A DNA stretch of 64,000 nucleotides. It comes from a virus. The stretch covers positions 31,857 through 95,856 of IMG/VR virus record IMGVR_UViG_3300009128_001633. One strand, written 5' to 3'. The translations under genes and the position numbers were made by a program. Positions within the stretch are counted from its first letter, which is position 1. Each line of letters starts with the position of its first letter. Below are positions 319 through 55,595 of the stretch, one piece after another. Below the pieces are notes generated by a model that ran no database searches, was not told the DNA's origin, and saw only the letters and a program-made list of their open reading frames with translations.

Positions 319-844
319 TTCCGCTACTCCTTCTTTCTCTAACACTAACAATACTAAAAACAGCTGGTTTTGAGATATGTACTAATTTAGCTAATTGTCC
401 ATAAGAAAAACCCATTTTCTTTCTCAGAATATATATCTCATCTTTTTGTTTTTTATTTAATTTCCATGTTGCTTTATTACTAACACGAAATCTATTTTTA
501 GAATAAAAATAATTTTTTGTACTCTTCACTGGACCAACACTTTTTTCTTTAACTCTGCTGAGTAAATGTTTTATCCGATCATATATTTCCCTTATTTCTC
601 TAAGTGCTTTATTATAAGAAGGATCGTTAACACCTAAACTGTTATGTATTTTCATAACCTTTTTTCTATACAACCAATCTGCCCAACTTAATTGTTCGCC
701 AATACATAACTTGTCATCTATATTAACAACTTCTTCTTCAAGAGCACCTAATGCGACAAAACACTTTTTCTTATTTAATGACTTTCTAACAACACTATAT
801 TTAACTTTCTTAGAAGGAAGTAGAGTATCCATATTATATACCAT
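275..844 (-). CDS. Helix-turn-helix protein of unknown role
   Basis: A 189-residue basic protein. Residues about 130-168 (KLNKKQKDEIYILRKKMG, then SYGQLAKLVHISKPAVFSI) form a plausible helix-turn-helix. The middle is a charged helical region (KALREIREIYDRIKHLLSR). There is no HNH or GIY-YIG motif, so I do not call it a homing endonuclease. It starts inside the 3' end of the upstream glycosyltransferase gene. No good ribosome binding site precedes either candidate ATG (844 or 832), which suggests coupling. It is an odd DNA-binding-like protein inside a sugar-transfer operon and could be a small inserted gene or a regulator. Confidence 0.6.
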   Translation of the reverse strand: MVYNMDTLLPSKKVKYSVVRKSLNKKKCFVALGALEEEVVNIDDKLCIGEQLSWADWLYRKKVMKIHNSLGVNDPSYNKALREIREIYDRIKHLLSRVKEKSVGPVKSTKNYFYSKNRFRVSNKATWKLNKKQKDEIYILRKKMGFSYGQLAKLVHISKPAVFSIVSVRERRSSGSVSSENTRKIQTSN

Positions 845-2659: not shown

Positions 2660-3243
2660 TTTTTTATAAATAACCTTGTGCGTAGTTTTAATCTTCTAAA
2701 AACACTATTAAATTCATGTGCATAGAATCCAAACAATATTTTTCTCACTTCATCAGCATAATTATTAAACACTTCAGTTTCCCAATCATGAACACCGAGC
2801 ATATCCCCAGATTTTAAATATTCAGCATACATAATTATTTCTTTACCTTTATCACCATTATCACAATATAAAAATTTTCTACGAGGATTTGAAAGTAAAG
2901 AAACTAATAATTCATTTTTTTTATTCAAAATATTATCAACTATAAAAACTACATTACTATTAAACCCTTTTTCAACTAATTCAGTAATATCTTCGCTTGT
3001 AACTAACCCTCTGATTTTTTTACTTTCATATATAGAATTATTATCAAAAGAATATAGTAGAATGTTTTCATTACATTCATGCAATAATAAAGTAAACCCT
3101 CCAGTTCCTGTTCCCAATTCTATAATGATTTCAGGATCACGAAGTCTCACAGCATTTCTGATATATTGTTCAACTTCTTTTTCATGACACATTAACGCTT
3201 TCAACTCTGGAAAATATCTACTTTTATAAAAGTTTCTAATCAT
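2656..3243 (-). CDS. SAM-dependent methyltransferase (class I, CmcI-like)
   Basis: 195 residues with motif I IIELGTGTGGFTLLL near residues 40-54, then YSFDNN as the acidic motif II position, and a later YCDNGDKGKEI / SGDMLGVHDWE segment. This layout resembles small-molecule O-methyltransferases and cephalosporin-hydroxylase-like proteins often found in surface-polysaccharide clusters. Sitting among glycosyltransferases and an acyltransferase with ATGA overlaps on both sides, it probably methylates a sugar. A role on protein or lipid cannot be excluded. Confidence 0.75.
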   Translation of the reverse strand: MIRNFYKSRYFPELKALMCHEKEVEQYIRNAVRLRDPEIIIELGTGTGGFTLLLHECNENILLYSFDNNSIYESKKIRGLVTSEDITELVEKGFNSNVVFIVDNILNKKNELLVSLLSNPRRKFLYCDNGDKGKEIIMYAEYLKSGDMLGVHDWETEVFNNYADEVRKILFGFYAHEFNSVFRRLKLRTRLFIKK

Positions 3244-3755
3244 TTTTTCACCATAGATTTAGCTGGAATACCAATAACTATATCACCTTCCTCAACGTTT
3301 TTTATCACAAGTGACATTGCTCCAACAACAGCATTCTCATCAACAACAACTCCTGGCATTATAGTTGACCCTGCACCAATATACGCACCATCGCATATGA
3401 TAGGAGGTAATTGAACACCTTTTACTTTACCTCTTAAAGTCATAACCATTGGACCAATAAAGACATCATTTCCTACAACAGTGCCGTCGGCTATGGATGC
3501 CGACGGCTTCCATTGTATGCGATTACCAAAAGAAGAATCAGTACCGGTTTTACAATAATGATCAATGAAAACATTATTACCTATTTTTGTTCCTTCCTTT
3601 AATAAAACCCAATTTTCTAATGTTACATCATCACCCACAATAACATTTTTTTCTATAACACACCAGCATCCAATCTTAAAATTACTTCCATGCTTAAAAG
3701 TAGGATGTACCGCATTGTTACCATAGCCCTCAACTTCTTTCCAATTTTCTAACAT
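3240..3755 (-). CDS. Left-handed beta-helix (hexapeptide) sugar acetyltransferase
   Basis: 171 residues made almost entirely of hexapeptide turns (KIGCWC, VIVGDD, KIGNNV, VVGNDV), ending with the usual AVVGAMSLVIKNVEEGDIVIGIPAKSM tail of WbbJ/WlbB-type acetyltransferases that use acetyl-CoA. A His lies in the DHYCKTG turn and is a candidate catalytic base. It overlaps the methyltransferase and deacetylase genes on either side. Deacetylase, acetyltransferase and methyltransferase together suggest trimming and capping of amino sugars. The gene contains an unusual GC-rich inverted repeat at 3483-3507. Confidence 0.85.
   Translation of the reverse strand: MLENWKEVEGYGNNAVHPTFKHGSNFKIGCWCVIEKNVIVGDDVTLENWVLLKEGTKIGNNVFIDHYCKTGTDSSFGNRIQWKPSASIADGTVVGNDVFIGPMVMTLRGKVKGVQLPPIICDGAYIGAGSTIMPGVVVDENAVVGAMSLVIKNVEEGDIVIGIPAKSMVKK
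3483..3507. repeat. GC-rich 9-bp inverted repeat inside the acetyltransferase gene
   Basis: GCCGTCGGC (3483-3491) and GCCGACGGC (3499-3507) are perfect inverted copies around a 7-base loop. The surrounding DNA is strongly AT-rich, so a stem of only G/C-containing steps stands out. There is no T-tract on the transcribed (minus) strand, so it is not a classical terminator. Confidence 0.8.
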
Positions 3756-4348
3756 AACGCCCTCCTATATATTAACTTTCTTACAATAAATGCTTCTGCA
3801 TATGCTTTTTCTGCATCTGTAATCAATGATGCCCAATATGCTTCTTTTTTCTTTATTATATTGATTTTTATAGTCTTCCTTTCAATTTGAGATTTAAAAT
3901 GTTTAACAAGTTTTAGTTTTAAATCAAAATCTATTAAACTAAACACATTCGGATGAAAATCATATGCACTACCACTATCATATATGTATGTTGTTATATA
4001 TTTTTTTCTACCAACCGACATGCCTATCCTAGAAGCTCTTATGTGATGTTGATGAGTATCCTTTTTAAATGGGACAAAGATAATATCAGGATGAAGATCA
4101 TCTAATTCCTTTATAACGGAATGATCTTCATCCATACTACAGAATGTAATGATATTAAACCTAGAAAATACATTAGCTTCTAACTGTTCTAAATATCTCT
4201 TCTTAGGATCTCCGGCCAAATCATCATCACTATTAGTTATACCAACAACAACTTTATCACCTCTCATTACATGCATATATAATGTTCCACCACAACTCAT
4301 CTCAGCATCATCGTAATGTGCTCCGACTGCCAATATGGTTTTACTCAT
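3749..4348 (-). CDS. PIG-L/LmbE-family sugar N-deacetylase
   Basis: 199 residues beginning with a clear PIG-L metal motif, AVGAHYDDAEMSCGGT (His11, Asp13, Asp14), the variant of AHPDDE found in N-acetylglucosamine deacetylases. A later KKDTHQHHIRASR segment supplies the second metal-binding histidines. The start at 4348 is chosen over 4366 because GGAGG lies just upstream and the ATG forms an ATGA overlap with the preceding small gene. It probably removes an acetyl group from an amino sugar, possibly for re-acylation by the adjacent beta-helix acyltransferases. Confidence 0.88.
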   Translation of the reverse strand: MSKTILAVGAHYDDAEMSCGGTLYMHVMRGDKVVVGITNSDDDLAGDPKKRYLEQLEANVFSRFNIITFCSMDEDHSVIKELDDLHPDIIFVPFKKDTHQHHIRASRIGMSVGRKKYITTYIYDSGSAYDFHPNVFSLIDFDLKLKLVKHFKSQIERKTIKINIIKKKEAYWASLITDAEKAYAEAFIVRKLIYRRALC

Positions 4349-4539
4349 ACACCCTCCTTCATCCAATCTTTTATTTTTTTATAATCATTTTTAGTCCACT
4401 TTTCTTCTTTAGGATACACACAATATTTCGTACAATCAGGATGCATATCTCTAATGTTCTTCTTGTCTTGCTCGGTCAAAATAACCATCACCGGCTCTTT
4501 CTCTCTATCATAAACTTTATTACCAACTTTTACTTTCAT
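4345..4539 (-). CDS. Small hypothetical protein (64 aa)
   Basis: A charged 64-residue protein (MKVKVGNKVYDREKEPVMVI...) with two cysteines in PDCTKYCVYP. It overlaps the upstream acyltransferase stop by one base and the downstream deacetylase start, so it is embedded in the operon. I do not recognise a named family. The KVYDREKEPVMVILTEQDK part looks like a small phage protein of unknown role. Coding is supported by tight packing and a normal length for such genes. Confidence 0.6.
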   Translation of the reverse strand: MKVKVGNKVYDREKEPVMVILTEQDKKNIRDMHPDCTKYCVYPKEEKWTKNDYKKIKDWMKEGV

Positions 4540-5282
4540 TAGAAGTTATACCCCCCCTCATATGGTTTTTGATATTTTGCTGGTCTACCAAAATAAATCC
4601 CAGGTTTTTCTATATTTTTCATGACTAATGAACCCATTCCGATAATGACATTATCACAAATACTTACACCGTTTTTTATCGCAGTAGTTGCACCTATCCA
4701 ACAATTCTTACCAATTGTAACAGAACCACATATATGAACTGCTCCTGCTATAACTGTATTCTTACCTATGTAGCAATTGTGACCAACATTTGATTGAACA
4801 GCAATTTTGACACCATTTTTTATTATCGTTGAATCCATAGCTGCTCTATGCACTATTGCATGAGCTCCTATTTCAACATTATTACCAATGACAACATTTC
4901 CAACATGTATGAATTGTACTTTGCTTCCATCTGGACAATTAGCAAATTTGAATCCCTCAACACCAAGAACTGCTTTTGGATGTATTCTACAATTATTACC
5001 TATAAAAACAGATTGTATATCGAGTTTCATTCTACTTTTATTTATTTCATTATGTGTTACAGTAAACTCATAATCAGGATCATCAACAAAACAAATGTTA
5101 AGACTTTTATCTAAATTCAAACAGTTTCTCATATTTTTTGGAGCATATATAATAACATCAAACTCTTTACACTTATCTAATAGGTGTAGATAACTAAGAT
5201 CTCTTATGAATGTCATACAGCCATCTCTTGGTTTTAATAATGAACATGTATCAGTGTATTCTTTTTCAACTTTATACATCAT
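4539..5282 (-). CDS. LpxD/NeuD-like beta-helix N-acyltransferase
   Basis: About 247 residues: an N-terminal alpha/beta domain (residues 1-85) followed by a long left-handed beta-helix. The helix begins IGNNCRIHPKAVLG and contains IGNNVEIGAHAIVHR and SNVGHNCYIGKNTVIAG, which match the catalytic-His region of LpxD-type acyltransferases (GHN). It ends YFGRPAKY. LpxD acylates UDP-3-O-acylglucosamine, and related enzymes acylate other UDP-amino sugars. The start at 5282 forms an ATGA overlap with the upstream gene and is preceded by GGGAGGG. Specificity is unknown. Confidence 0.82.
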   Translation of the reverse strand: MMYKVEKEYTDTCSLLKPRDGCMTFIRDLSYLHLLDKCKEFDVIIYAPKNMRNCLNLDKSLNICFVDDPDYEFTVTHNEINKSRMKLDIQSVFIGNNCRIHPKAVLGVEGFKFANCPDGSKVQFIHVGNVVIGNNVEIGAHAIVHRAAMDSTIIKNGVKIAVQSNVGHNCYIGKNTVIAGAVHICGSVTIGKNCWIGATTAIKNGVSICDNVIIGMGSLVMKNIEKPGIYFGRPAKYQKPYEGGYNF

Positions 5283-6028
5283 ACGCCCTCCCATGATAAA
5301 AATTGATTTTTACTTGGTTTGTTGTAACCCATTTTCTCTCTCCAGTATCTACCACGTTTACCATCAACTAATGCATGATCTCCTGGATTGCCATATATGG
5401 CATAATCCCATTTCATAACTAACTGACTAAGGATTGGATCTTTTCTACGAAACTGCTTTTCTGGATTTACATCTCTTCTCATTAGTGGCAAAGCTTCTTT
5501 CATAAAAGATGTTCTTATTAAAGAAGGATTTAGAGAGAACGAATTTCCTGGGCTTTTAGATATACAAAAACCATCATGAACATCAAAAAACAAACCACTA
5601 ACTTCAACTATCCTTTTCGTATATGACTTTAGTTTTCTATTACAAAACCTTATAGAAGCCACACTATTATTTTTTTTCATAATTCGTATTAGACGACTTA
5701 TATCCACATCCCTAAATATTTGCCAATCATCTTCTAAATGAAAAAAATAATCAGATTCAACTTGATTCCATGCCCATATAACTGCGTTAGGGAAAGATGG
5801 CTTTGGTGATATGTTATATATAACATTTTTTCTGTTAAAAAATTTGTAACACATCTCAAGAACAACTTGTGGTATATGATTTTCACCAACAACATCTATA
5901 TTTATAATAAGCCTATAACTACCTTTTTCTTTAAAGACACGTTTAGTAAATGTTTCAAGTGTTCTTTTGACTATTTTGGGACGTATAACAGAAGTCATAG
6001 CTATGTCAATTTTTTTATTCAATTTCAT
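5279..6028 (-). CDS. GT2-like (GT-A fold) glycosyltransferase
   Basis: About 249 residues with DIAMTSVIRPKIVKRTLETF at the N-terminus, typical of GT-A enzymes, and a metal-binding LEDDW motif in YFFHLEDDWQIF. The C-terminal part (RRKDPILSQLVMKWDYAIYGNPG, GKRGRYWREKMGY) resembles a family of phage and metagenomic glycosyltransferases. Candidate starts are ATG 6034 or 6028, and the ribosome binding site is weak at both. The gene overlaps both neighbours, as is usual in this operon. Confidence 0.75.
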   Translation of the reverse strand: MKLNKKIDIAMTSVIRPKIVKRTLETFTKRVFKEKGSYRLIINIDVVGENHIPQVVLEMCYKFFNRKNVIYNISPKPSFPNAVIWAWNQVESDYFFHLEDDWQIFRDVDISRLIRIMKKNNSVASIRFCNRKLKSYTKRIVEVSGLFFDVHDGFCISKSPGNSFSLNPSLIRTSFMKEALPLMRRDVNPEKQFRRKDPILSQLVMKWDYAIYGNPGDHALVDGKRGRYWREKMGYNKPSKNQFLSWEGV

Positions 6029-6812
6029 CTCCATTTCCAAATTGGAATGCTAACTCATTATTGTCACTAAAACAGCACATAGTAGACATTCGCTTATCTA
6101 TCCTTCTAGTAACCCAAGCATCAACAACTTTACCAACATCTATGGACCTACCACCATTTCTACGTATTTCACCACTATAAATCCGGCCTAATTCACCAGA
6201 AGCTAATATCCAAAGATCATAATCATTTGCCTCTTTTCTTATTTCATCTATAATACTATCATATGAAACATCATAATGATTACCAAAAAATCCAGGAATT
6301 AGTTTAACTGTAACAGATCTTGTATGTCTTGATAAAATTCTGTCAACCCTATAATAATTTGATATACAACATATGGAACGATGTCTAATTGTTTCAATTA
6401 GATTATGTCTAGCATTTTCAGCAAATAATAAAATACCCATTTCTGGACTACAAAACTTTCTGTTAATATTAATTCCTATCTCTGAATAAATTTCCTTCCA
6501 TTGAGATAACAATTTCCAATTATCAGGTGATGTTTTGCCTCTTTTTTTATGAGTTTTTTCAATAAAATAGAACTCAGGAGAATCAATATAATCAGCTTCG
6601 TTCGCACTATTTATCCAACTTTTTATTAAATTTTTAAAAAAGAAATGAGGAATGCCCTCCTGTCTACTGGTGGAATAGTCTGTGGTTCCATCTATAAATC
6701 TTTTCATGACCTTTAAACCACCATCATTAAACCTAATCATTGAAAATGGACTCCTAGAAACAATAGCCACTTGAAGATCACGAACAACCTCAGATACAGT
6801 TGACAATTTCAT
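6015..6812 (-). CDS. GT-D-fold-like glycosyltransferase (DUF1792-like)
   Basis: 265 residues. The N-terminal SPFSMIRFNDGGLKVM resembles the SFxRFGDGEL motif of the GT-D family (DUF1792). The C-terminal LWILASGELGRIYSGEIRRN followed by GRSIDVGKVVDAW fits that family's late motif with a conserved Asp-x-Gly. AGGAG lies 7 bases before the ATG at 6812. The assignment rests on motif resemblance only and could be wrong in detail, but the position among sugar-transfer genes agrees with it. Confidence 0.6.
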   Translation of the reverse strand: MKLSTVSEVVRDLQVAIVSRSPFSMIRFNDGGLKVMKRFIDGTTDYSTSRQEGIPHFFFKNLIKSWINSANEADYIDSPEFYFIEKTHKKRGKTSPDNWKLLSQWKEIYSEIGININRKFCSPEMGILLFAENARHNLIETIRHRSICCISNYYRVDRILSRHTRSVTVKLIPGFFGNHYDVSYDSIIDEIRKEANDYDLWILASGELGRIYSGEIRRNGGRSIDVGKVVDAWVTRRIDKRMSTMCCFSDNNELAFQFGNGDEIE

Positions 6813-6821
6813 TTTAAACTC

Positions 6822-7868
6822 CTAAAGCACAGATTCAAATATGGTTTGCATTTTTATAGCATTGTCTTTAACACTACCAATTTTTTCATGCAGTAATTGT
6901 TTTAAATTAGATTTATGATTATTGGCCAAATCCAAATTTTCAGCGTACATAAATATTGAATGAATCGCATCAGGAATGCTTATATAATTAAGTGATGTGA
7001 AATTGTTTATAGCATAATCACTTACACCTGACTTAGTGCAATCTCTAACAACTAAATTACAATTGCATAATCCAGCTTCCATTGGTGGTATATGTAGTCC
7101 TTCAAGTATGGTTGTTGAAAGCCATATATCACACAAAGACATAATTTCGATTTTCTTCTCAAATGTAGGTCTTAAGAAAAACTTAAACGGAATATAAGAT
7201 AAACCATCAACAACTTGAGGCATGAGTGTTTTATCTCCAAATAAAATTAACTCATGTAATAAACCAATTGTTTGAAGATGATAAGCCATTTGCAATATAT
7301 CCATAAACTTTTTTGTATGTTTGTCCATATAATACAAAGCACCAATGGTAACTTTTCCCGTAGGACTTTCAGTCATACCATGCTTTAGACAAGAAAATAT
7401 TTCATCTATAGGTAATCCCGGATATTGAATTTTAGAATCAACAAGACAAACATCATTAAGCATTCTTTTTAACCACTCTGAATTAACAAGAAGATTTAAT
7501 CCTGATTTATATTTTTTAAAAAGTTGCTCCTCTGGATTAGCCCACGTTTCATGTCCCCTTATCCAATAAAACTTATTTTTCATTGATAAATGTGGATAAC
7601 TAACCGTACTTTCCACTGTATTACATCCAGTGGCTACAATTATATCATATTTCGGCCATCTACTAACATCTCTATCTATACCTGTGACAAAATGTTTCAA
7701 ACGTGCAGGTATTTCAAACCAAGTAAATCTATCTGGACTATCTAATAAAATTTTAACACTATGGCTTAATTCATCCAAAGCCATAGCCATTCTTGCTATT
7801 GATTGACTACCTCCATTATTGGCAAGCCCACATGAAACCAAATTGAATGCTATATTAATTCCTGGCAT
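6822..7868 (-). CDS. GT-B glycosyltransferase (GT4/GT1-like)
   Basis: 348 residues starting MPGINIAFNLVSCGLANNGGSQSIARMAMAL, the glycine-rich acceptor-side opening typical of GT4 enzymes, with the middle hinge VTIGALYYMDKHTKKF and the C-terminal donor motif WLSTTILEGLHIPPMEAGLCN (ExxxxxxxE). The start at 7868 is chosen because GGAGGTG lies 7 bases upstream. The 89-base space before it (7869-7957) has no ORF and no clear promoter. Confidence 0.82.
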   Translation of the reverse strand: MPGINIAFNLVSCGLANNGGSQSIARMAMALDELSHSVKILLDSPDRFTWFEIPARLKHFVTGIDRDVSRWPKYDIIVATGCNTVESTVSYPHLSMKNKFYWIRGHETWANPEEQLFKKYKSGLNLLVNSEWLKRMLNDVCLVDSKIQYPGLPIDEIFSCLKHGMTESPTGKVTIGALYYMDKHTKKFMDILQMAYHLQTIGLLHELILFGDKTLMPQVVDGLSYIPFKFFLRPTFEKKIEIMSLCDIWLSTTILEGLHIPPMEAGLCNCNLVVRDCTKSGVSDYAINNFTSLNYISIPDAIHSIFMYAENLDLANNHKSNLKQLLHEKIGSVKDNAIKMQTIFESVL

Positions 7869-7957
7869 AAAATTACACCTCCGCAAAATTACTAAAACAC
7901 TGGCCTTCTCATATTGTGATTAACAATTTCTCAATCCACAATTAACAAGGTTAAAAG

Positions 7958-9820
7958 TTACATCCATATTCTACCCTCCTTTACTTGCTCTGCAAATTTC
8001 AAAACTTCCTCTACACACTTTTCTTTGTTAATTATATAGCCTATATCACTTTTTAAGCCTTCGAAAAATCCAGCAAATGTTTTAGCCCAATTTTCCTCAA
8101 TCATGTGTCTCTTCTTTTCATGACCAACAATGAAAGAAGGTATGCCGCATAATAAAGAAATTTTAGATAATCCAGACTGAGGACCAAATGTGAACATTGC
8201 TTTATTGAGATTACAAAAAGCAACCAATATATCTAAGGTTTCATTATCATTAAAGTAAACAAGATCACGATGCACTATCTCATCTTTTAGTTCATATGCA
8301 CCGCTCTTAGAGCCAATTGATATTAATAAATGATTAGGAAACTTATTACGCAATTCATGGCAAAGATCTACATAAAACCTATATGATAAATTCCTGTCAC
8401 CATGTATTCCTTCTCTTCTTCTGGGAAAAATTAATATGCTATTATCTTTGCCACACAATTTTCTAACATAATCTCTAGCTTTTTTACTTGAAATATACGG
8501 CGTATAAAACTTATTGGAAACATATTTCACTTTATCAAAACTATTAAAAATATCGCATTGTGGATAAATCTTACTTAATATTGAAGACATTTTTTTACCA
8601 ACAAAACGATTATTTATATTATGAGGATCTATCATGAAATGTTGTTCTGCTGACATATTTTTTGTCATTTCTTTAATTTTATCTGGCAATTCAAGTAAAT
8701 CATCACAACAATCTCTATAAAATACAAATTTAGCTTTTGAAGTTATGACTATTAATCTTCTCCACGGATGTTTTTCTCTAAACTTTTTAACAAAAGCAAC
8801 TAAATATTGAGTCCAACCAACTTCACCAACATCACAAAACAGTAATGGGTCATCATTGTAAAATCTACTTATGGGATGCGATGCTCGATCTTCCCTTACA
8901 ACCTTTTCATCAAAAATAATAGGCTTATCTATATTACCAAACCTAATTATTTCATCTATACATTTTTTATGATTATTTAATCTGTATTTACCATTTACTC
9001 TCTTAACAACATGAAATCCAACTCTTGTATTCATCCAATTATCATCGATCATATGTCTTTTCTTTTCATGCCCCATTATGAATGTTGGTACACCGCACAT
9101 TAAAGAAATTTTTGGTAACGAAGATTGGGAACCAACAGCAAAATCAACTTTTTGATACACACATGCTGCTATCATTAAATCCAAACTTTGTAGATCAGAC
9201 CAAGTTGTTAGATCTACAAAATTGTCGTACTTAATATTAGAATCGATATGATGGGATCCAACCACTGAACCCATGGCTGATACTGTATGCATGGGATAGT
9301 CGTTGCATAGTCTATTACACAAATTTATATAAAATTTTTCTGTCAAATTTCTATTGCCAAACTTACCTTTTCTTTTTCTTGGAAAAACTAATATTAATGG
9401 TTTATCACTAAAAAGATTTTTGCATGTTTTCATTGCTTTTTGAGATGAATTGAACCTATACGGCATTCTTTTATTAAAAAAAGCACCATATTCATTAACA
9501 ACTTCATAACTATCACGGAAATGTTTGTTTATATATTTAAAAAGTATGTCATTCGTTATGCATTTTTTCTTTTTATGTGAATATAAATGCGTACCGTCTT
9601 GATCAAGACTACTATCGTTTATATTATCAAATATTTTATCAGGAATTGGTATCCTTTCAATTTTTATGCCGTTATACAGTACAAAACGCTCTGGAAATGT
9701 ACAAACTGCTATCTTGCGGTTGTCATTTATGAGAAGCCAGTTCATATGAGCAGTTAACGGCAAGCTCCAACCTAATTCACCAACATCATAAAATAATAAT
9801 GGTTTCTTTTCATTTCCCAT
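7958..9820 (-). CDS. Tandem-duplicated GT9-like (heptosyltransferase-fold) protein
   Basis: About 620 residues built from two homologous halves. Each half opens with FYDVGELGWSLPL or FCDVGEVGWTQYL, has a central LILVFPRKRKGKFGNRNL or ILIFPRRREGIHGDRNL segment, and ends with GSQSSLPKISLMCGVPTFIMG or GPQSGLSKISLLCGIPSFIVG and then GHEKKRHMI plus NW. The last motif resembles the conserved C-terminal region of GT9/GT-B transferases. The start at 9820 has GGGGGAAG upstream and overlaps the preceding gene. It could act on two substrates, or one half may be regulatory. The exact enzyme class is inferred. Confidence 0.7.
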   Translation of the reverse strand: MGNEKKPLLFYDVGELGWSLPLTAHMNWLLINDNRKIAVCTFPERFVLYNGIKIERIPIPDKIFDNINDSSLDQDGTHLYSHKKKKCITNDILFKYINKHFRDSYEVVNEYGAFFNKRMPYRFNSSQKAMKTCKNLFSDKPLILVFPRKRKGKFGNRNLTEKFYINLCNRLCNDYPMHTVSAMGSVVGSHHIDSNIKYDNFVDLTTWSDLQSLDLMIAACVYQKVDFAVGSQSSLPKISLMCGVPTFIMGHEKKRHMIDDNWMNTRVGFHVVKRVNGKYRLNNHKKCIDEIIRFGNIDKPIIFDEKVVREDRASHPISRFYNDDPLLFCDVGEVGWTQYLVAFVKKFREKHPWRRLIVITSKAKFVFYRDCCDDLLELPDKIKEMTKNMSAEQHFMIDPHNINNRFVGKKMSSILSKIYPQCDIFNSFDKVKYVSNKFYTPYISSKKARDYVRKLCGKDNSILIFPRRREGIHGDRNLSYRFYVDLCHELRNKFPNHLLISIGSKSGAYELKDEIVHRDLVYFNDNETLDILVAFCNLNKAMFTFGPQSGLSKISLLCGIPSFIVGHEKKRHMIEENWAKTFAGFFEGLKSDIGYIINKEKCVEEVLKFAEQVKEGRIWM

Positions 9821-11714
9821 TTGCTTCCCCCAACATTTCATCTAATTTTTGTAGAGTGTTAAAAAATTTTGGATATAATATATCAATTACACTTCTCATA
9901 TTCTCAACCCTTGGATATTCATGAGCAAAATGCATAATATAAGCTTCTGTTTTATTTGGATTTTGACCTCTGGAAGTAAACCCATTTATTTCCATACCAT
10001 TAAACTTTTTATCAAGTGGAAAAAACTTATACCCATTTCTAAATAAATTAAAGTTCAAAAGAGTCTGGTCTTTAAATTGAGAATTAAACCTTTCTCTTAA
10101 CTCTGGATTACTAAACAGACCTTTATGGTGTTTAGAAAATAACAACACTCCAGAATTGAAGTATCCAGAATGCCAACCAACAAAACCTAATGCTCTTTGA
10201 ACTTCCATTGCTTCATCGTATCTATTTAGATTACCCCATATACCATCAAAATTATCTGCAACAGCAGCAACATGATCGAAAGGTACTATATTAAATAAAT
10301 CTGGACAATCAGGATGAATAACTATGTCTACATCTAAATATAATATCCTATCATATTTATCCAAAAACTCAGCCATTTGAAATTTTTCTAAATTTGGGTA
10401 CATGCCATTAATTTTTTCATCATCAATTACTATAACCTCTGCATTTGTCTTACTACCATAATTCATAAAACAATCTAGCGTAACCCCCAACATCTCTTTT
10501 GCTTCATCACCAATAGCCAACGTAACTATTGCTCTTTTTTCATCTACATCATGCTCAAGTTGTTTAGACTTAGGTGTCATATGCTTTGTTACACTATATA
10601 ATGGCAATAACTCATTGTTAATTGTATCAACAATAACATCTGGCTCTATAACCACTAAACATGGACTATAGCCATCGGATAGAGCATGACGACATGGTCT
10701 ATTGCCATGCAAAAAACATGGAGAACAGTTTGTCGCACCATCAATACCTATTGCATTATCGAAATATTTAATCCTGAGTTCACTTGGTATCGGACCAAAT
10801 AATCCAATCATTGGTTTGTTAAGTGCTCCCGCTATATGTAACCCCGAAGTGTCTGCCCCAACAAATATGTTACAACAATTTATTATTGAAAATAAATGTT
10901 TTAAAGAAAGACAATGACGAGCAAAGTTAAATGACATCTTTTCGTCACACATATCGTATCTATTTATTAATTCAGTAACATTAGGTTCACCTATTATTAC
11001 TGTTTTTATATCTTGTGCGTTCAATAGTGAAACGAGATGCTTGAATTTTTCTAACGGATAATTCCTCAATATTGTTGAAGTTTGTAACTGAATCCCAACA
11101 ACAGGATAACCTTCAGCTAAACCCAATCCTTCAAAAGTTATTGCCACATCATGATCTATGTCAGGGTTGAAATGTATTTCAGGTATTTTATCGATTCTTG
11201 GAAAATCATCATGATTCATTGAGAACGCTTTTATAAACAAATCATAAATATTTATAGTAGTTGAATCCACTGTTTTTGTTTCAACTAAACCTTGAAAAAA
11301 TATTGTATAATCTGATTCGTTTACTATTTCGAGTGGATATGGTAGGTGTACATATTTGTCAACAAAAGGATTGTTGACAAACAATTCACTGTACATTTCA
11401 GAACTGCCAACTATAACTTTACACGAAGGATTTCTTTTCTTTATGATTTTAATAGGGACCATCATTGCCATAAGGTCCCCAATACCAGAAGTTCTAAAAG
11501 CAAATATTGTTTTACCTTCTAAATTCTGACCAGTATATGGCTTCATGTATTTATAAAAACTAAGTTCTTCACTTATAGCCCTTTCACCATATACAAGCTT
11601 TATTTCTGTTATCAACCTTTCATCCAAAATGTAAAACTTGCCCTTATCGACCTTAGTTGAGTCTCCCTTCGACAGAGGTAAATCTATATCTGTCGTAAAT
11701 GAAAATATTCTCAT
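9810..11714 (-). CDS. Bifunctional glycosyltransferase: N-terminal GT9, C-terminal GT8
   Basis: 634 residues with two recognisable domains. Residues about 60-375 match GT9 heptosyltransferases: FRTSGIGDLMAMMVPIKIIK, YPVVGIQLQTSTILRNYPLE, VGADTSGLHIAGALNKPMIG and LFGPIPSELR. Residues about 390-615 match GT8: RAIVTLAIGDEAKEML and a DVD metal motif in DRILYLDVDIVIHPD near residue 458, followed by YFNSGVLLFS and DQTLLNFNLF. GGAGGG precedes the ATG. GT9 enzymes add heptose to lipopolysaccharide core and GT8 includes lipopolysaccharide galactosyl/glucosyltransferases, so two consecutive transfers by one polypeptide are likely. Confidence 0.85.
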   Translation of the reverse strand: MRIFSFTTDIDLPLSKGDSTKVDKGKFYILDERLITEIKLVYGERAISEELSFYKYMKPYTGQNLEGKTIFAFRTSGIGDLMAMMVPIKIIKKRNPSCKVIVGSSEMYSELFVNNPFVDKYVHLPYPLEIVNESDYTIFFQGLVETKTVDSTTINIYDLFIKAFSMNHDDFPRIDKIPEIHFNPDIDHDVAITFEGLGLAEGYPVVGIQLQTSTILRNYPLEKFKHLVSLLNAQDIKTVIIGEPNVTELINRYDMCDEKMSFNFARHCLSLKHLFSIINCCNIFVGADTSGLHIAGALNKPMIGLFGPIPSELRIKYFDNAIGIDGATNCSPCFLHGNRPCRHALSDGYSPCLVVIEPDVIVDTINNELLPLYSVTKHMTPKSKQLEHDVDEKRAIVTLAIGDEAKEMLGVTLDCFMNYGSKTNAEVIVIDDEKINGMYPNLEKFQMAEFLDKYDRILYLDVDIVIHPDCPDLFNIVPFDHVAAVADNFDGIWGNLNRYDEAMEVQRALGFVGWHSGYFNSGVLLFSKHHKGLFSNPELRERFNSQFKDQTLLNFNLFRNGYKFFPLDKKFNGMEINGFTSRGQNPNKTEAYIMHFAHEYPRVENMRSVIDILYPKFFNTLQKLDEMLGEANGK

Positions 11715-46234: not shown

Positions 46235-46642
46235 TTATATAGTCCTTAGAAATTGAATTATTTCTTTTAATTTATTTTTATCCTTTATTGTCTTAACAAT
46301 TGGCTTTTTCATTCCAAGGGTAGAAGCTAAAGTAATCAGCTCGCTTCTACCCTTGTCCTGAAGATCATCATCAAATCCTCCAGAAACAAATACAGGAGTA
46401 CGCTTAATATCACTTTTGCTCTTATTTATCTCAATTTCGTACTCTTCATACTCACCTTCATCATCCAACCTAACAAACTTGCAAATTCTCAATTCCTTTT
46501 TAGAGTCGGTATGATATTGTTTGGTTTTATTTCTAGCTGCATCCATTAAATAATCTGAAGGATTTTTCTCTATATCTCCAACGTTATACATTTTACCCAT
46601 ATGGGTTAGTCCAGGAAATAAAACTTTAACGGCCTTTGGCAT
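46235..46642 (-). CDS. Small head-completion-type protein (135 aa)
   Basis: 135 residues (MPKAVKVLFPGLTHMGKMYN...) with a charged middle and a C-terminal helical domain (SELITLASTLGMKKPIVKTI, KDKNKLKEIIQFL) that resembles Rho-N/SAP-like modules often fused to phage head proteins. AGGAGGG precedes the ATG. Function not assigned. Confidence 0.6.
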   Translation of the reverse strand: MPKAVKVLFPGLTHMGKMYNVGDIEKNPSDYLMDAARNKTKQYHTDSKKELRICKFVRLDDEGEYEEYEIEINKSKSDIKRTPVFVSGGFDDDLQDKGRSELITLASTLGMKKPIVKTIKDKNKLKEIIQFLRTI

Positions 46643-46717: not shown

Positions 46718-47956
46718 TTATGCGATAGTTGCAGCTATGAAACCACGTTTCCTATAAAGAACAGGAAGAGCATTAATACCAGCAATAATTTCAATCTGTT
46801 TAGGATCTTTATTAAGAAAAATAGTTTCAGCAAATTTTCCAGGAGCGGGATTAGTGAGACTACCCTGTCCATAAACAGCGTCTACACTAATAACCTCACC
46901 TTTTGGACCAGATCCCGGAGGAAATTCAAGTTCCATAAGAAATACATTATCGGGAATGTATGTTTTATAACATCTCAACATACTCTGGGCTGGATATGTT
47001 CCTGTAACTGTAGTTCCTGTAAAATCAATTGTATCACCAGATATACTGGCAATAGTCATATTCTCCTCCGCACTTTCATCAGCAGCAGAGAATTGGCAAA
47101 CATCGGCAGCAGCAAATCCCTTAGCATCGTCCATAACTATGGTAGTTACTGATCCTGCGGCTTGAGCAGCCTGAGAATAAGTAATCAAGTTATATCCTGC
47201 ATCATAAACTTCATATTCATAATTGCCAATATAGGTACTGAAAATTTGTTGGAGTATCTTACGACTCATAAGACCAACATTGCCAGCATTAAACACTCGA
47301 TCAACAAGAGCTAGTACCCTGGCATTCCTAAACAAATACTGTTCACACATTGTATTAAACCAGAATTTCTTGACTTTACCACCAGACCCACGAGCAAGAC
47401 GTACCCAAGTCTGAATATCATTGATTGGGTCTGAAGTCGCAGCTGTACTCCACAACGGAGAAGCAGTAGGCCTCTGTCTTCCAGGAATATTATATGAAAT
47501 TGTAAACTGAACCTTATTATCGTTGATAGCTAAGGTATTAGCAACCGGAGGTTGCCACCTCATCCATTCAATTCTTGTTTCTAACCTCGAATCAAGATCA
47601 ATCATAATATCGGCAATAAGCTCCGCAGCAGTTGATCTTTGCTCCCACGTCCCAAGTTTTCTCAATGTGGTCACATCAGACTCACCAAGGATAACTTTTT
47701 CACGAAAATGAGCAGGCTCAAAAGACGCTTGCCCGACACCCCTACGATGGATAACCGGAGATTCGGCTCCTCGTGCGACTGCTTGAGTCATTCCACCAAG
47801 TGGTCTTTTTATATCCCATTCAACCTTTGGTCCAGGCTGAGTGACTAACGGCATAATATCCTGACCACGATAAGTTTCTGTCTGAGGAGGAATGTCATCA
47901 ATCACCTTCATAAGATACCTCGGGGTCAAGAGTGTGCTTTCTACTAATGCATCCAT
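46718..47956 (-). CDS. Major capsid protein (lambda gpE family)
   Basis: 412 residues. The N-terminal region (YRGQDIMPLVTQPGPKVEWD, LGGMTQAVARGAESPVIHRR, ILGESDVTTLRKLGTWEQRS) and the end (KGEVISVDAVYGQGSLTNPA, KQIEIIAGINALPVLYRKR) match the lambda E-type capsid family. A roughly 75-residue insertion (SQAAQAAGSVTTIVMDDAKG to DTIDFTGTTVTGTYPAQ) adds an Ig- or beta-type domain, probably on the capsid surface. The gene has visibly better codon balance and higher G+C than its surroundings, as expected for an abundant protein. AGGAGGT precedes the ATG. Confidence 0.9.
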   Translation of the reverse strand: MDALVESTLLTPRYLMKVIDDIPPQTETYRGQDIMPLVTQPGPKVEWDIKRPLGGMTQAVARGAESPVIHRRGVGQASFEPAHFREKVILGESDVTTLRKLGTWEQRSTAAELIADIMIDLDSRLETRIEWMRWQPPVANTLAINDNKVQFTISYNIPGRQRPTASPLWSTAATSDPINDIQTWVRLARGSGGKVKKFWFNTMCEQYLFRNARVLALVDRVFNAGNVGLMSRKILQQIFSTYIGNYEYEVYDAGYNLITYSQAAQAAGSVTTIVMDDAKGFAAADVCQFSAADESAEENMTIASISGDTIDFTGTTVTGTYPAQSMLRCYKTYIPDNVFLMELEFPPGSGPKGEVISVDAVYGQGSLTNPAPGKFAETIFLNKDPKQIEIIAGINALPVLYRKRGFIAATIA

Positions 47957-49056: not shown

Positions 49057-49686
49057 CTACTTCTTTTCTACTAAACGAAGACCCTTTTTCCTGAAAGACC
49101 TACCAATAGCTTCGTTTTCCATTTTATTTTGCTCTTCTTCTGTAAAAGAAACACCGTCGCCTATATTGGTTTCCTCATTATAGTTAGCACGCTGAGAAGT
49201 AGGAATGGCTTCAAGAATCTTAAGAACAGCTTCGCGAATTGTAAGTTCAAGATCAACACTCTTCTCTTCTTCGCCTTCACCAATTGTTTCAGTAAATTTT
49301 ATAATCCTATCCTCTTCCTGATCACTAAGCATAATCTCTTTGGCAATACTAACAACAGCAGGATGATGATGTTTATCAGTAAGAAGCTTATCACAAATCC
49401 GATCAATCTCAACAACACGAGCTCTTTCATCACTCGCAATCTGTTTACTATGAAGTGTTTTTGTCTTCTCTTCATATTTTTCAATTTTATCAGACATTTC
49501 CTTCATTTCTTTTTTCTGTTCAAGGATGAAATCTTGCAACTCTTTATTGTTATCATCTGAAGATTCATCAAGCTTTTTCTGAAGCTCATCATTCTTTTTC
49601 TCAAGCTCCTCGTTCATTGCTTGCAAATCTTCAAGAGTCACATCTTCATCCTTAACAGCAGGATCACGTTTAATATCTTTTTTCAT
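49057..49686 (-). CDS. Predicted nested scaffold protein, in frame within the protease gene
   Basis: In the protease reading frame, ATG at 49684-49686 is preceded by AAGGAGGTAAATAGT, an excellent ribosome binding site inside coding DNA. Translation from here gives a 209-residue acidic coiled coil (MKKDIKRDPAVKDEDVTLED...) that is the scaffold domain alone. Nested, in-frame scaffold genes are known in lambda (C/Nu3) and Mu (I/Z), so this one is expected by architecture. Confidence 0.75.
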   Translation of the reverse strand: MKKDIKRDPAVKDEDVTLEDLQAMNEELEKKNDELQKKLDESSDDNNKELQDFILEQKKEMKEMSDKIEKYEEKTKTLHSKQIASDERARVVEIDRICDKLLTDKHHHPAVVSIAKEIMLSDQEEDRIIKFTETIGEGEEEKSVDLELTIREAVLKILEAIPTSQRANYNEETNIGDGVSFTEEEQNKMENEAIGRSFRKKGLRLVEKK

Positions 49687-50244
49687 ACTATTTACCTCCT
49701 TGGTTTGTAATCTATAAACAGAAACGTCGGAATCATCACTGTTTAATGAAAATTCTATTTTCTTCAGTTTAGAAATAAATGGTCTATTAGTTAAAGCTCC
49801 ACCCATTATGGCCGGACCAAATTCTTCACCACTTTCTGGATCCTCATAGTTATCACTGTATTCAATGCTAAAATATCCATAACGTTTCTTTTCAATGCTA
49901 TCTTTACCCTCTTCAGTAAGTTCAGTTGTCCCTATGAGTACGCCTTCTTCAATCTTAAGTTCTTTTAACCAACCACTTGCAGCTTCAGCTTTGTGATTCC
50001 AATCAAAACTAATCTCTCTACCAACTATCTCTTCGTTAAAATTAGTGACCATACTTTCAAGCATTTCTTCAGTAATTTCAAGATCACCATAAATCTTATG
50101 CTTGAAATCCCCTACCCTAAGCATTTCAATATTAACAAAATTTTCAGCTAATTCAGATACAATTTCCGAATCTAAAGAGACTATGCTGAAAAACTTGCCT
50201 TTATCAAAATGCACATCAGATAATTTCTTTCTTTTTTTGCCCAT
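49057..50244 (-). CDS. Head maturation protease with C-terminal scaffold domain (Mu I-like)
   Basis: 395 residues. Residues 1-190 match phage Mu protein I-type proteases: FKHKIYGDLEITEEMLESMV, GREISFDWNHKAEAASGWLK and KKRYGYFSIEYSDNYEDPES, with EEFGPAIMGGALTNRPFISK. His and Ser in FDWNHK and YFSIEYS are candidates for the catalytic residues. The remaining 200 residues are an acidic coiled coil (LQAMNEELEKKNDELQKKLD) typical of scaffolding. An internal ATG at 49686 with its own strong ribosome binding site would produce the scaffold alone. Confidence 0.85.
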   Translation of the reverse strand: MGKKRKKLSDVHFDKGKFFSIVSLDSEIVSELAENFVNIEMLRVGDFKHKIYGDLEITEEMLESMVTNFNEEIVGREISFDWNHKAEAASGWLKELKIEEGVLIGTTELTEEGKDSIEKKRYGYFSIEYSDNYEDPESGEEFGPAIMGGALTNRPFISKLKKIEFSLNSDDSDVSVYRLQTKEVNSMKKDIKRDPAVKDEDVTLEDLQAMNEELEKKNDELQKKLDESSDDNNKELQDFILEQKKEMKEMSDKIEKYEEKTKTLHSKQIASDERARVVEIDRICDKLLTDKHHHPAVVSIAKEIMLSDQEEDRIIKFTETIGEGEEEKSVDLELTIREAVLKILEAIPTSQRANYNEETNIGDGVSFTEEEQNKMENEAIGRSFRKKGLRLVEKK

Positions 50245-51266: not shown

Positions 51267-51512
51267 TCACTCTGAGCAAAAACCAAGACATTTACCATCA
51301 GCATCAAGATGCACATCCATTCCCTGACAAACATAAATGTCAAACTCATCGATTTTCTTATTCCATTTGCAATCATTGTTATCACAGGTCATGGAAACTT
51401 TACCTAATTTACAAAAACCACCTTTCATCCAATGTGCGCACATCTTAGCTTGACAAACATACTTGCCATCGACCTTTTCCCAAGTACATTCTGAACTATC
51501 ATCACTCATCAT
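51267..51512 (-). CDS. Cysteine-rich small protein (81 aa)
   Basis: 81 residues with eight cysteines spaced as SECTWEKVDGKYVCQAKMC, GFCKLG, MTCDNNDC, YVCQG and KCLGFC, suggesting metal binding or disulphides. GGAGGG lies just before the start, with ATG 51512 or 51509 possible. The gene overlaps the end of the portal gene. Its family is not recognised. It is unusual between portal and head genes. Confidence 0.55.
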   Translation of the reverse strand: MMSDDSSECTWEKVDGKYVCQAKMCAHWMKGGFCKLGKVSMTCDNNDCKWNKKIDEFDIYVCQGMDVHLDADGKCLGFCSE

Positions 51513-53742
51513 TGCCCTCCTCAGTAAGTTTTTTCAGCAAATACACTTGAATAAAATGTTTATGCTCACCATTCTCATCTTCTTCAACGTCACCTTCCGT
51601 ACTATAGGTATCCATTACAGTTAAATTGTTAACAACAAATGTATCCTTGAGTTCAGCAGAATCAAAATTAACCTCAACAGTATCTTCATCACCATAATAT
51701 TCTGTCTTTTCATACATAAAGACCAGAACAATACCACCTTCTTTAGTAACTCTACTTATTTCACCAAAACTTTTATCCATATTAGTAGAATGAAGTACAG
51801 AAAGTGAATACACTAGATCAAACTCCTCATCATCAAACTCTAAATTTTCTGCATCACCGACCATATACTCAACATTTTCATGGTTATTACTCTTTATAGC
51901 AGCATCTATGGCAACAGGAGTTATATCTATAGATATAACTTTATATCCACTTTCACCAAAATATTTACTATCTCTGCCATTACCACACCCTATTTCTAAT
52001 ATATTCCCTTTTGTTTTATTAACTTTTTCATTAGCTATTAAAACCTCTGCCAAATCAGAATGTTCATCAGAATCAGCCCAATGGACTTCACCAGACTTAT
52101 ATGCATCTAACCATCCTTTTTTATCTATATCTTTAAATTTAAGAATCTTATCATTCTTAACATTCCAAACCCTTTCTGATTTCTTAACAGGTTCACGCTT
52201 CACTTCTTTAGCAGCAGGTTTACGTTTTACTTCTTTTTCCTCCTTTTCTTTTTTTGGAGTTTCCTTAGGAGAGACATTTGGATCAATGCCAGCACCAGAA
52301 TTTTCATACTCTTCTTCTACTGGAATTATCGGAATACCCAAAACATCACTCATTTGCTTGATACTTGGCATCACTGTAGGTATAACTCCGGCCTTCATCC
52401 AAGTATTCATGTTCTGAATAATTGATACCATTATTTCCTTAAGAATACGCCTCCTATCATATTGTATTTTTTCAATTTTAACACGACATGGGACAATTTT
52501 CTTTGGATTAAAGTTAAATTGAACAATAGGTGGTATCAATTGAGCATTAACCGAATCAGCTAATTCGCTAGCCAAACCCTCTTCACTTAGCAAAAAAATC
52601 TCAGCATGAGAAGAAGCCATACTGAAGCTACCAGTTGAAAGATCTTGCGTCATAACTCTTTCTGGAGTTAACAAACCTCTTAATATTTGAGCATTTAAAT
52701 GATTAAGTGCATTTACAAACATTTCACCACGACGATCATCTGCCAAATACTCTATTGCCCACTGATTACCACCTTCCCTATCAGCTTCATACGGTAAAGT
52801 AACTGTACTATTTTCCAACAAATTTTGCGAGATTCTTAATGCTATTTCAGAATTATCATATTCAGTACCATCCAACGTAACACCACCACCTATTGGATGA
52901 GTAACAACAGTGGCAGGACTTCCCTTCCTCTCAAAATATCTCAACATAAACTGTGTTAAGACCTCTTTCCAATACCATGATTTATAGGCAGCTTTCAAAC
53001 GAGCATTACCAAAAAAGTTACCAAATTCGTCGCCAACTGTAAATAACAAACATTTCTCAGCATCTAATTTGATATTCTGACCACTTATATTCTGAACTAT
53101 TCCAATAAAATCATCCGTCTTACTATCAGTTCTAATTTTAATCGTAGCAGGATAATGTGCTTTGATCTTCTTCCATACTTCTGCCTTACCACTAAAATGG
53201 GTTTTCTTTCTACCATTTGGACTTTGAGAAGATATATCTATGTCTAACAATTCCCATATTATTTCATGACTCGCAAAACCAAAGTCAATTGAAGTCAACA
53301 TAGAAATTATTAGTTTTTTCCATACCCTTGTTAATGCTTCCTTAACAAACTCCCTTATATCAGGATCCTCACATTCTATAGTCCATCCCAATGAAACTAT
53401 TGGCATTTTAATCATTGCTAGACCAATTGCAATCTGGGGATCCGTCTTCATTTTAATATATGTATCAATTGGAATTGTATCTGGATTATAAACACCTATT
53501 GTTTCTGAACCAAAAGCAGCAGCAGTCAAAGGACTACCGTGTCTTGTTACATCCCTATGCATAGCAGTTTTCTTAAACTTAGCTTGTTGAGTGGATAAAT
53601 AAACCCTCATTTCATCACGAACATCTTTAGGCATACCTCTTTGTCTCATTAGAGATATTAACCTTCTACCACCCTCAGGATATGAATGTGCTCTGTAATT
53701 CAAAAAGTTAGGGTCAATTACTCTTGCTATGGTCTGTTTCAT
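51502..53742 (-). CDS. Portal protein (DUF935 type) fused to a C-terminal SAM methyltransferase
   Basis: 746 residues. Residues about 1-470 match Mu gp29/DUF935-type portals: FLNYRAHSYPEGGRRLISLM, PIVSLGWTIECEDPDIREF, EVLTQFMLRYFERKGSPATV and SFSMASSHAEIFLLSEEGLA. A Lys/Glu-rich linker (about 490-540, KEKEEKEVKRKPAAKEVKR) leads to a class I methyltransferase at about 575-740: motif I ILEIGCGNGRDSKYFGESGY (Gly585, Gly587, Gly589), acidic Asp606 in VISIDITP, GDAENLEF and FDLVYSLSVLHSTN. No frameshift separates the two, and the fusion frame is open throughout. The portal gene overlaps the terminase stop as ATGA. Portal role secure; methylation target unknown. Confidence 0.88.
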   Translation of the reverse strand: MKQTIARVIDPNFLNYRAHSYPEGGRRLISLMRQRGMPKDVRDEMRVYLSTQQAKFKKTAMHRDVTRHGSPLTAAAFGSETIGVYNPDTIPIDTYIKMKTDPQIAIGLAMIKMPIVSLGWTIECEDPDIREFVKEALTRVWKKLIISMLTSIDFGFASHEIIWELLDIDISSQSPNGRKKTHFSGKAEVWKKIKAHYPATIKIRTDSKTDDFIGIVQNISGQNIKLDAEKCLLFTVGDEFGNFFGNARLKAAYKSWYWKEVLTQFMLRYFERKGSPATVVTHPIGGGVTLDGTEYDNSEIALRISQNLLENSTVTLPYEADREGGNQWAIEYLADDRRGEMFVNALNHLNAQILRGLLTPERVMTQDLSTGSFSMASSHAEIFLLSEEGLASELADSVNAQLIPPIVQFNFNPKKIVPCRVKIEKIQYDRRRILKEIMVSIIQNMNTWMKAGVIPTVMPSIKQMSDVLGIPIIPVEEEYENSGAGIDPNVSPKETPKKEKEEKEVKRKPAAKEVKREPVKKSERVWNVKNDKILKFKDIDKKGWLDAYKSGEVHWADSDEHSDLAEVLIANEKVNKTKGNILEIGCGNGRDSKYFGESGYKVISIDITPVAIDAAIKSNNHENVEYMVGDAENLEFDDEEFDLVYSLSVLHSTNMDKSFGEISRVTKEGGIVLVFMYEKTEYYGDEDTVEVNFDSAELKDTFVVNNLTVMDTYSTEGDVEEDENGEHKHFIQVYLLKKLTEEGNDE

Positions 53743-55595
53743 CTTCCTAAATTCTCCCGAAATATTGGAACTTCAAACTGATCCATATGATTAGGAATAG
53801 CAGGAAACTTATTCCAATTAACACCATGTATATCTGGAAGTTTCTTAAACTCTCTTGGACGTGTTGCGGGAATTAATCTCTTTGAAATAATCGGAGTAGA
53901 AAGTGAAGATCCTATTAATCTAACTCTATGCATTTGTGCAAGCTTTCCAGCAGACGACGCTAATGCTAAAGCCCAAAACTTATCACCATGATGACGCCGT
54001 CTTTCACTTGGACTAACTTCATATTTTATAATAGCACCTTCCATTACCTTTCTTTTAATACTATGTATCTGCCTTATTAAACCCTTATCGTTTGGATAGG
54101 CCAATGTCTGATCTTCCATCCGCAGCTTTACATTGGTCGCCATTTCACCCTTATTAGCATTATTGAACTTCACATCCTCAATTCTACTATGAAATTTGTG
54201 TCTAAGATCCTCAGCAAGATTATCACCTTGCCCAGTTGAATCTATTTTCATTTTATTTATAGGCATTAAGCCAAATAACTTTTCAACAGTCTGAAATTGC
54301 TTCCTATATCTAGTTTTTCTAAGAGAAATTATTAATCTAACAACTTGTAAAAAATCCAATTCAGGAATTTCCTCTAAAACAAATATCTCAGATGAATCCT
54401 CCCTTCTACCTATATCGTATCCTGCAAATAACCTTTTGCTAACTATTCCCTTGCTAATAGCATGAGATAGTTCTTCCATTGTTTTATATATTTTAAAATT
54501 AAAGTCAGGATAAATAGGATTGGTATAAACAGGATTGTCACCGTATAAATCACCTTCCTCAACACTAGCAAATCCCATCAATGCTTCGAAAGTACATTGC
54601 TTAATTAAATCCATCGGATAGTATGAAACAGACTCATCTATGGCTTCTAACTCATATTCCTGTTGAAAATACTCTATCAACATGCTATTAAAAGCCTGTT
54701 TAATAGCTTCGTTTCCAAACTGCAATACTCTATCTTCTGTTTCTAACTCTAAAGCTACTTTATGGATTTCATCAAAATTTCTAACAGCATCTTCATTTAA
54801 AAAGTCAGGATTATTCCACCAATACACTCTGTGTCTTGAATAATTACTATAAGTCTCGATATCACTACCTATTTCATAATGTAAACCTGACTGTCCCAAT
54901 GGAGAAGAAGCCATACTTAGCTGACCAAATCCACGAGTTACTATTGGAACAGCAGCAATATAAACTTTCTCAGGCCATTGATAATGTGCTATCTCATCAA
55001 GAAATACATCAGTATTATAACCCTTACCACGAGGTTCTCGTTGAGGATGACTTATAAGGCGAGTGCGTGTTTTCCTGCCATCAGGGAGTTTTCCCTCCCA
55101 TTCAAGAGCAGTAACACGATCAACCACAAGTTTTTTCTTGTATTTATAAGGAACACTTTCATTAAGAGTTCTTGCATAAGTTATCTTTTCATTAGCTTCA
55201 TCCTGATTAAATGATACAAATATACCAGTATATATGTCAAGCAGTTGGCTCTTAGCATAACCTTCACAAGAAAATCCATAGGATTGTCCAATTTGACGAC
55301 TTTTATCACAGTGACGATATTTACTGCGATCACTCATGAAATCTCTCTGATATGAATAGAGGCAGGTTGGTTCAAGGTTGGTTTCCGTCAAGGTCTCTAT
55401 GTAACCAACCTCATTTGATATTTTATCAATGAAATTACTTCCAGCACGTTTTCTAGCTTTAATAACCTCCTTTTTATAATCCTCCAAGTTATCACGAGGA
55501 TCCTTTTTAGACAGAATCAGCGGACCCGTAACCGGAGTCCGCTTAACTTTACCCTTTAAAACAGGAGTTCTTTTAATAGCAGGAGTTCTTTTCAT
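53739..55595 (-). CDS. Terminase large subunit (Mu Gp28-like)
   Basis: 618 residues. The ATPase domain has a deviant P-loop KSRQIGQSYG (Lys98, Gly103, Ser105), Walker B DVFLDE (Asp200, Glu201) and SMASSPLG as the coupling motif. The RNase H-like nuclease has GYDIGRRED, MKIDSTGQGDN and HHGDKFWALALA. In many phage terminases the Walker A lysine lies at the N-terminal side as here. The N-terminus holds three KRTP-type repeats (MKRTPAIKRTPVLKGKVKRT) of unknown function. Confidence 0.9.
   Translation of the reverse strand: MKRTPAIKRTPVLKGKVKRTPVTGPLILSKKDPRDNLEDYKKEVIKARKRAGSNFIDKISNEVGYIETLTETNLEPTCLYSYQRDFMSDRSKYRHCDKSRQIGQSYGFSCEGYAKSQLLDIYTGIFVSFNQDEANEKITYARTLNESVPYKYKKKLVVDRVTALEWEGKLPDGRKTRTRLISHPQREPRGKGYNTDVFLDEIAHYQWPEKVYIAAVPIVTRGFGQLSMASSPLGQSGLHYEIGSDIETYSNYSRHRVYWWNNPDFLNEDAVRNFDEIHKVALELETEDRVLQFGNEAIKQAFNSMLIEYFQQEYELEAIDESVSYYPMDLIKQCTFEALMGFASVEEGDLYGDNPVYTNPIYPDFNFKIYKTMEELSHAISKGIVSKRLFAGYDIGRREDSSEIFVLEEIPELDFLQVVRLIISLRKTRYRKQFQTVEKLFGLMPINKMKIDSTGQGDNLAEDLRHKFHSRIEDVKFNNANKGEMATNVKLRMEDQTLAYPNDKGLIRQIHSIKRKVMEGAIIKYEVSPSERRRHHGDKFWALALASSAGKLAQMHRVRLIGSSLSTPIISKRLIPATRPREFKKLPDIHGVNWNKFPAIPNHMDQFEVPIFRENLGR
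55519..55543. repeat. GC-rich inverted repeat near the start of the terminase gene
   Basis: AGCGGACCCG and CGG-A-GTCCGCT pair as a 10-bp stem with one bulged base around the loop TAAC, about codons 18-26 of the terminase gene. A strong hairpin close to the translation start stands out in this AT-rich DNA. Confidence 0.6.

Follow-up and report, generated by a model that had tools for sequence, protein, structure and literature searches.

A class I methyltransferase on the portal protein of uncultured phages and its coupled Cys-rich partner

Phage portals, the protein rings by which DNA passes into and out of the head, are essential and structurally constrained. The locus described here raises the question of what a methyltransferase (MTase) is doing at the end of one. 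The DNA analyzed, called the window below, is a 64,000-nucleotide stretch from an uncultured virus (positions 31,857 to 95,856 of the 95,856-base IMG/VR record IMGVR_UViG_3300009128_001633). The original prediction was that a portal gene continues in a single frame through a charged linker into a complete class I SAM MTase, and our analysis upheld it: the ORF at 51502-53742 (-) encodes 746 amino acids from ATG to stop with zero internal stops, and both Pfam matches lie far above their cut-offs. The portal domain (52309..53742 (-), residues 1-478; PF06074 E 4.6e-33, phrog_113 E 4.8e-41) identifies the protein as a Mu-type phage portal, with a Portal_Mu match at residues 93-427 that scored 115.4 bits against a gathering threshold of 23.9 and covered 302/336 positions. 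It is followed by a fast-evolving K/E/P-rich linker of pI 9.5 (52123..52308 (-), residues about 479-540) and by the MTase domain (51502..52122 (-), residues 541-746 and the stop codon), in which residues 582-673 matched Methyltransf_11 (PF08241) at 79.1 bits against a cut-off of 21.2 (E 3.9e-22). SAM motif I, ILEIGCGNGRDSKYF (51958..52002 (-), residues 581-595), contains an intact ILEIGCGNG, and together with the Rossmann-like fold indicated by the structure model and Foldseek it places the domain among the class I SAM MTases. The interval first given for the fusion, 51502-52065, had to be extended, since it covers residues 560-746 only; the domain itself begins at about residue 541 (nt 52122), and the gene as a whole extends to 53742.

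The same portal-MTase fusion was found end to end, at 70% identity, in a second contig (IMGVR_UViG_3300035698_025650, L002). Because this contig is independent, assembly error is ruled out, and the fusion in the window is confirmed as real, neither a chance product nor an artifact of assembly. Identity between the two differed by part, at 79% for the portal core, 43% for the linker and 66% for the MTase. The MTase domains gave a dN of 0.28 and a dS of 1.5, a sign of purifying selection like that on the neighboring genes, and dN/dS was well below 1 in both the portal and MTase domains, with dS saturating.

The substrate was considered from the predicted structure and from motifs. The isolated MTase domain was modeled by AlphaFold2 with a pLDDT of 84 and a pTM of 0.83, and the best 50 solved-structure matches in Foldseek were mostly small-molecule MTases (TleD, TehB, Rv0560c and phosphoethanolamine MTases), with a minority of a few RNA-type enzymes (METTL6) and no DNA MTases. 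The domain lacks both the (D/N/S)PP(Y/F/W) and the PC motifs, the fusion protein had no Pfam match to a DNA-MTase family, and by catalytic motifs and profile the domain is neither a DNA N6/N4 nor a C5 methyltransferase. It is also very acidic, with a pI of 4.3 and a net charge of -29. The original prediction had offered modification of the genome during packaging as one role. The position of the enzyme next to the DNA channel would suit an MTase that modifies phage DNA passing through the portal, and DarB of phage P1 is a virion DNA MTase (PMC5512222); given the acidity, the missing DNA-MTase motifs and families and the likeness to small-molecule MTases, however, we consider this reading very improbable. 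The structural comparison proposed with that prediction gave no support to a DNA MTase. Host factors and virion proteins, which the original prediction also named, stay in consideration as targets. The predicted fold and the motifs indicate that the substrate is likely a protein, an RNA or a small molecule.

The MTase is an optional extension of the portal tail. In at least seven close portal relatives of 55-67% identity (L003/L004, L007/L008, L011, L091, L092, L095 and L096), the portal stops after the linker, which they share with the window, and there is no MTase; the L093 portal also ends early. The MTase profile had zero matches in the records of these MTase-less relatives, which extend up to 114 and 98 kb. 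The MTase was therefore gained by, or lost from, the end of a pre-existing tail, and it is accessory, since close relatives do without it.

Work on other phages suggests where such a tail would lie. In JBD30 the portal crown remains within the capsid (PMC11445458). The Mu structure does not show the final 124 portal residues, which protease I is thought to remove (PMC11915804). Mu portal residue 388 aligns, in a distant alignment, near window residue 467, before the linker; on this boundary the linker and the MTase would fall wholly within the segment that Mu removes. In many distant Mu-type portals the same C-terminal slot is occupied by MuF, and one portal (L238) has both MuF and the MTase. 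Given the proposed Mu cleavage, the JBD30 crown and the MuF in the same position, the tail has the appearance of a site for cargo within the head. The location of the enzyme at the portal vertex, as first proposed, is accepted here as probable. The AlphaFold model of the full-length fusion, with a pLDDT of 46, was too poor to place the MTase domain. As a separate observation, the MuF part of the portal-MuF ORF in L118 is split by a long intein-like insert with an HNH-type endonuclease, which is absent from the sister locus L117.

The fusion gene sits in a normal head module of terminase, portal, Mu I-like protease and capsid genes. The terminase large subunit is encoded at 53739..55595 (-) (phrog_5909 E 3.7e-28), the Mu I-like head maturation protease at 49057..50244 (-) (PF10123 E 1.4e-13) and the major capsid protein at 46718..47956 (-) (PF03864 E 1.1e-25). 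The protease is a candidate for release of the MTase. L216 and L235 encode head proteases as well, and L226 gave a weaker match. A PF10123 search run without a positive control had no match in the other fusion records, two of which have phrog_80-type proteases.

To find related enzymes, 2.9 million viral contigs were searched at the DNA level for the SAM motif EIGCGNGRDS, with no reference to portals. The 24 loci returned all encode members of a single MTase subfamily, which matched one another in phmmer at E 7e-16 to 6e-89. EIGCGNGRDS, itself the search key, is invariant in 17 members, and the blocks W..Y...HW, SLSVLHST and D..GE.H are held in common. The MTase is the C-terminal part of a portal-fused single ORF at 19 of the 24 loci; at three it is a separate gene adjoining the portal or terminase gene, and two loci are cut by contig ends (L221 and L236). 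None of the 24 copies was seen away from head genes. The homologs are thus not always two genes, in agreement with the predicted fusion. The view that such a fusion is very unusual needs qualification: it stands in that about 50,700 phage isolate records held no relative, and it fails in that uncultured phages have the fusion repeatedly, on at least five families of portal. These are PF06074 (window, L002 and the L223 group), PF04860 (L216, L229, L235, L234, L232 and L230, with L222 assigned by PHROG), PF06381 (the L226 group), phrog_10963 (L224 and L217) and phrog_30703 (L238, in the order portal, MuF-like domain, MTase). The near-identical L225, L228, L231, L233, L237 and L239 were counted from their translations, outside the family scan.

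Other searches returned generic enzymes. In tblastn the window MTase had zero matches in phage isolates and only generic MTases in plasmids, and the L229 and L232 MTases found only generic phage MTases in phage isolates. Back-translated patterns that started from the MTase retrieved only L002 and one unrelated MTase, and it was the exact SAM-motif pattern that exposed the family. Some 200-odd cellular and viral MTase matches outside the subfamily were generic. The MTase profile A9, applied at E 1e-30 to 1,194 genomes of three bacterial phyla with no positive control genome among them, had one match (L241), a generic cellular MTase without the partner described below, which does not prove prophage absence. 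The portal-adjacent MTases of other Mu-portal phages (those of L143 and L144, and the Zn-ribbon/TPR types) belong to a different family. Several Mu-portal phages (L135, L137, L139, L141, L152, L154, L160 and L169) have, immediately upstream of their terminase-portal genes, another type of MTase with an N-terminal Cys cluster, Methyltransf_23 and often a C-terminal TPR.

The three separate genes differ in setting. In L218 the MTase gene follows an intein-bearing portal, in L220 it lies between the terminase and an ORF without a family match, and in L227 it comes after the portal, attached to a short stretch from the N-terminal end of the following gene. In L218 the intein-like insert splits an HK97-type portal (L218:6094-8640). 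These loci count against carriage of the enzyme on the portal, as does the Met that several fused members keep at the start of the domain, five residues ahead of the domain Trp, with which a free enzyme is possible. Both features would also fit a reading in which portal and MTase act as two proteins through re-initiation or processing and the fusion itself is meaningless. The window, however, has no Met at that position, nor does it offer a separate MTase any start codon preceded by a ribosome-binding site. Its fusion ORF contains no in-frame ATG or GTG from residue 514 to motif I, residue 514 itself being a GTG without a Shine-Dalgarno site, and the sole in-frame TTG (residue 564) falls inside the domain; a separate MTase start is therefore not evident, and we give the two-protein reading very little credence.

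The distribution of the MTase over portals points to movement. In the MTase tree the portal types require 6 changes, and the Mu type occurs in two places on well supported branches. This means that the MTase moved from one portal type to another and that the fusion was not inherited from a common ancestor. Since the backbone of the tree is poorly resolved, an exact number of fusion events is not given. L224 and L227 are sisters with portals 84% identical, and the MTase is on the portal in L224 and on the N-terminal 65 amino acids of the next gene in L227, a piece that shares 72% identity with the beginning of L224's next gene. In L216, 48 amino acids between portal and MTase share 62-65% identity with the beginning of the minor head gene of L229 and L235; what is left of that gene comes after the partner gene. 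The module has entered the portal/minor-head region at different points, always continuing the reading frame of a head protein. Such differing insertion points, the patchy presence of the module and the small-molecule MTases among the nearest solved structures would all be expected of a mobile accessory cassette (moron) inserted at the portal/minor-head junction, expressed through the in-frame fusion and serving a function unrelated to the virion, for example detoxification or metabolite modification. Whatever the portal family, however, the module stays within the head genes, and in-frame fusions prevail although an independent gene with a start of its own would be the simpler arrangement; we regard a moron of this kind as unlikely.

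The second gene of the module, to which the original prediction did not refer, is translationally coupled to the MTase. It encodes an 81-amino-acid Cys-rich protein at 51267..51512 (-), with an 11-nt overlap between its start and the MTase stop, and 7 Cys are invariant in the family. Wherever an examined locus continues past the MTase, a homolog of about 70 amino acids comes next, usually overlapping, at a distance of -11 to +12 nt from the stop codon of the MTase, and the ORF is absent from those relatives of the window phage that have no MTase. Ten of 17 partner family members matched DUF1540 (best E 7.6e-6), the window member weakly, at 19.1 bits against a cut-off of 22.1. The partner had no match in PHROG, NCBIfam or the PDB, and no solved structure resembling it was found. 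A dedicated immunity gene, as in MuF polymorphic toxins, was not recognized; the Cys-rich gene always trails the MTase.

The reading that we prefer, with a probability of about one half, is that a two-gene module of a TehB-like MTase and a coupled Cys-rich protein rides on the portal and acts on a target other than DNA. The dispensable C-terminal tail of the portal, after the inward-facing crown, would carry about 12 MTase copies into the procapsid, and the head protease may cleave the linker and free the enzyme. The Cys-rich protein would be a metal-binding subunit or activator of the MTase or, less likely, its substrate. The target could be a head protein, or a host molecule reached after ejection with the genome.

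A possible, though doubtful, alternative is that the tethered MTase works during assembly, with the portal, adjoining head proteins or the Cys-rich partner as its substrates, and does not reach the host. The MTase always lies within the head module, the co-translated partner could be substrate or activator, and virion proteins of other phages, including portal and capsid, can be methylated (PMC13288928). That study, however, held host enzymes responsible, and relatives of the window phage assemble without the module, so the modification would not be essential to this head. A broader form of the preferred portal-borne module, which we put forward tentatively and hold to be rather improbable, is a virion-delivered effector system in which a mobile MTase/Cys-rich module has repeatedly joined proteins in the head interior of tailed phages that are not related, the maturation protease frees it within the head, and it travels with the genome to methylate a host target. 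That a single MTase subfamily, with one partner, has been coupled to portals of five or more families suggests that its function lies at the head vertex or in the injected payload. If the enzyme is delivered, protein or small-molecule methylation would join the known early weapons of phages.

Portal-fused enzymes are already known. The polyvalent proteins include a PBECR RNase, a 2H phosphoesterase and an InPase fused to portal domains, and are proposed to be packaged and injected (PMC5512222). The fusion in the window resembles them in having an enzyme appended to the portal or MuF; the passages of that source covered here mention no portal fusion of a class I MTase, no fixed Cys-rich partner and no single subfamily spread over several types of portal. 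The MuF polymorphic toxins found in temperate phages (PMC5576092) also carry a C-terminal enzyme on a head-internal protein encoded beside the portal, whereas the window enzyme is on the portal itself, the MTase is not a recognized toxin and no immunity gene was recognized. Pfam and PHROG gave no MuF match in the window fusion, which on this test is not a MuF toxin, and within the subfamily MuF occurs only in L238. P1 DarB is likewise a methyltransferase linked to phage heads, but it is a methylase-helicase acting on DNA, in contrast to the strongly acidic window domain without DNA-MTase motifs. TehB/TPMT-type MTases share the fold, the N-terminal W...HW segment of the window resembles the TPMT type, and TehB is among the highest-identity structural matches (23-27%); at 57.5 bits against the TehB equivalog cut-off of 218, however, the window MTase is not a TehB. 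Trm112-activated enzymes, in which a class I MTase has a small Cys-rich partner, serve as a working analogy, and one Trm112-bound archaeal MTase was among the structural matches, although the window partner has no sequence match to Trm112. Searches of an open-access library found no description of portal-methyltransferase fusions. What is new here is the enzyme class on the portal, the conserved Cys-rich partner and the repeated capture by several portal families. The fusion would add to the enzymes known to be integrated into the packaging machine, and the recurrence of the MTase and Cys-rich pair in several unrelated groups of uncultured phages suggests that virus heads contain an enzyme package not described before.

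Some further features of these genomes were observed. A short KIKRTPVK-like motif recurs in the head-assembly proteins of the window, with 8 matches against 1.8 expected from shuffles. Three sites are in the terminase N-terminus (53739-55595), one is in the portal linker (KREPVK, 52183..52200 (-)) and one lies after the protease domain (49057-50244), with a further copy in a 135-amino-acid head ORF at 46235-46642. The motif was also recorded in L002, L003, L011, L091 and L096, and is possibly a docking motif. In L003, a homing endonuclease-like gene just before the capsid region (L003:9944-10882) ends in three RTPV-type copies. Finally, glycosyltransferases, a PIG-L deacetylase and hexapeptide acyltransferases are clustered beside tail genes at 834-11714 of the window, perhaps for glycan decoration of the virion or the host surface.
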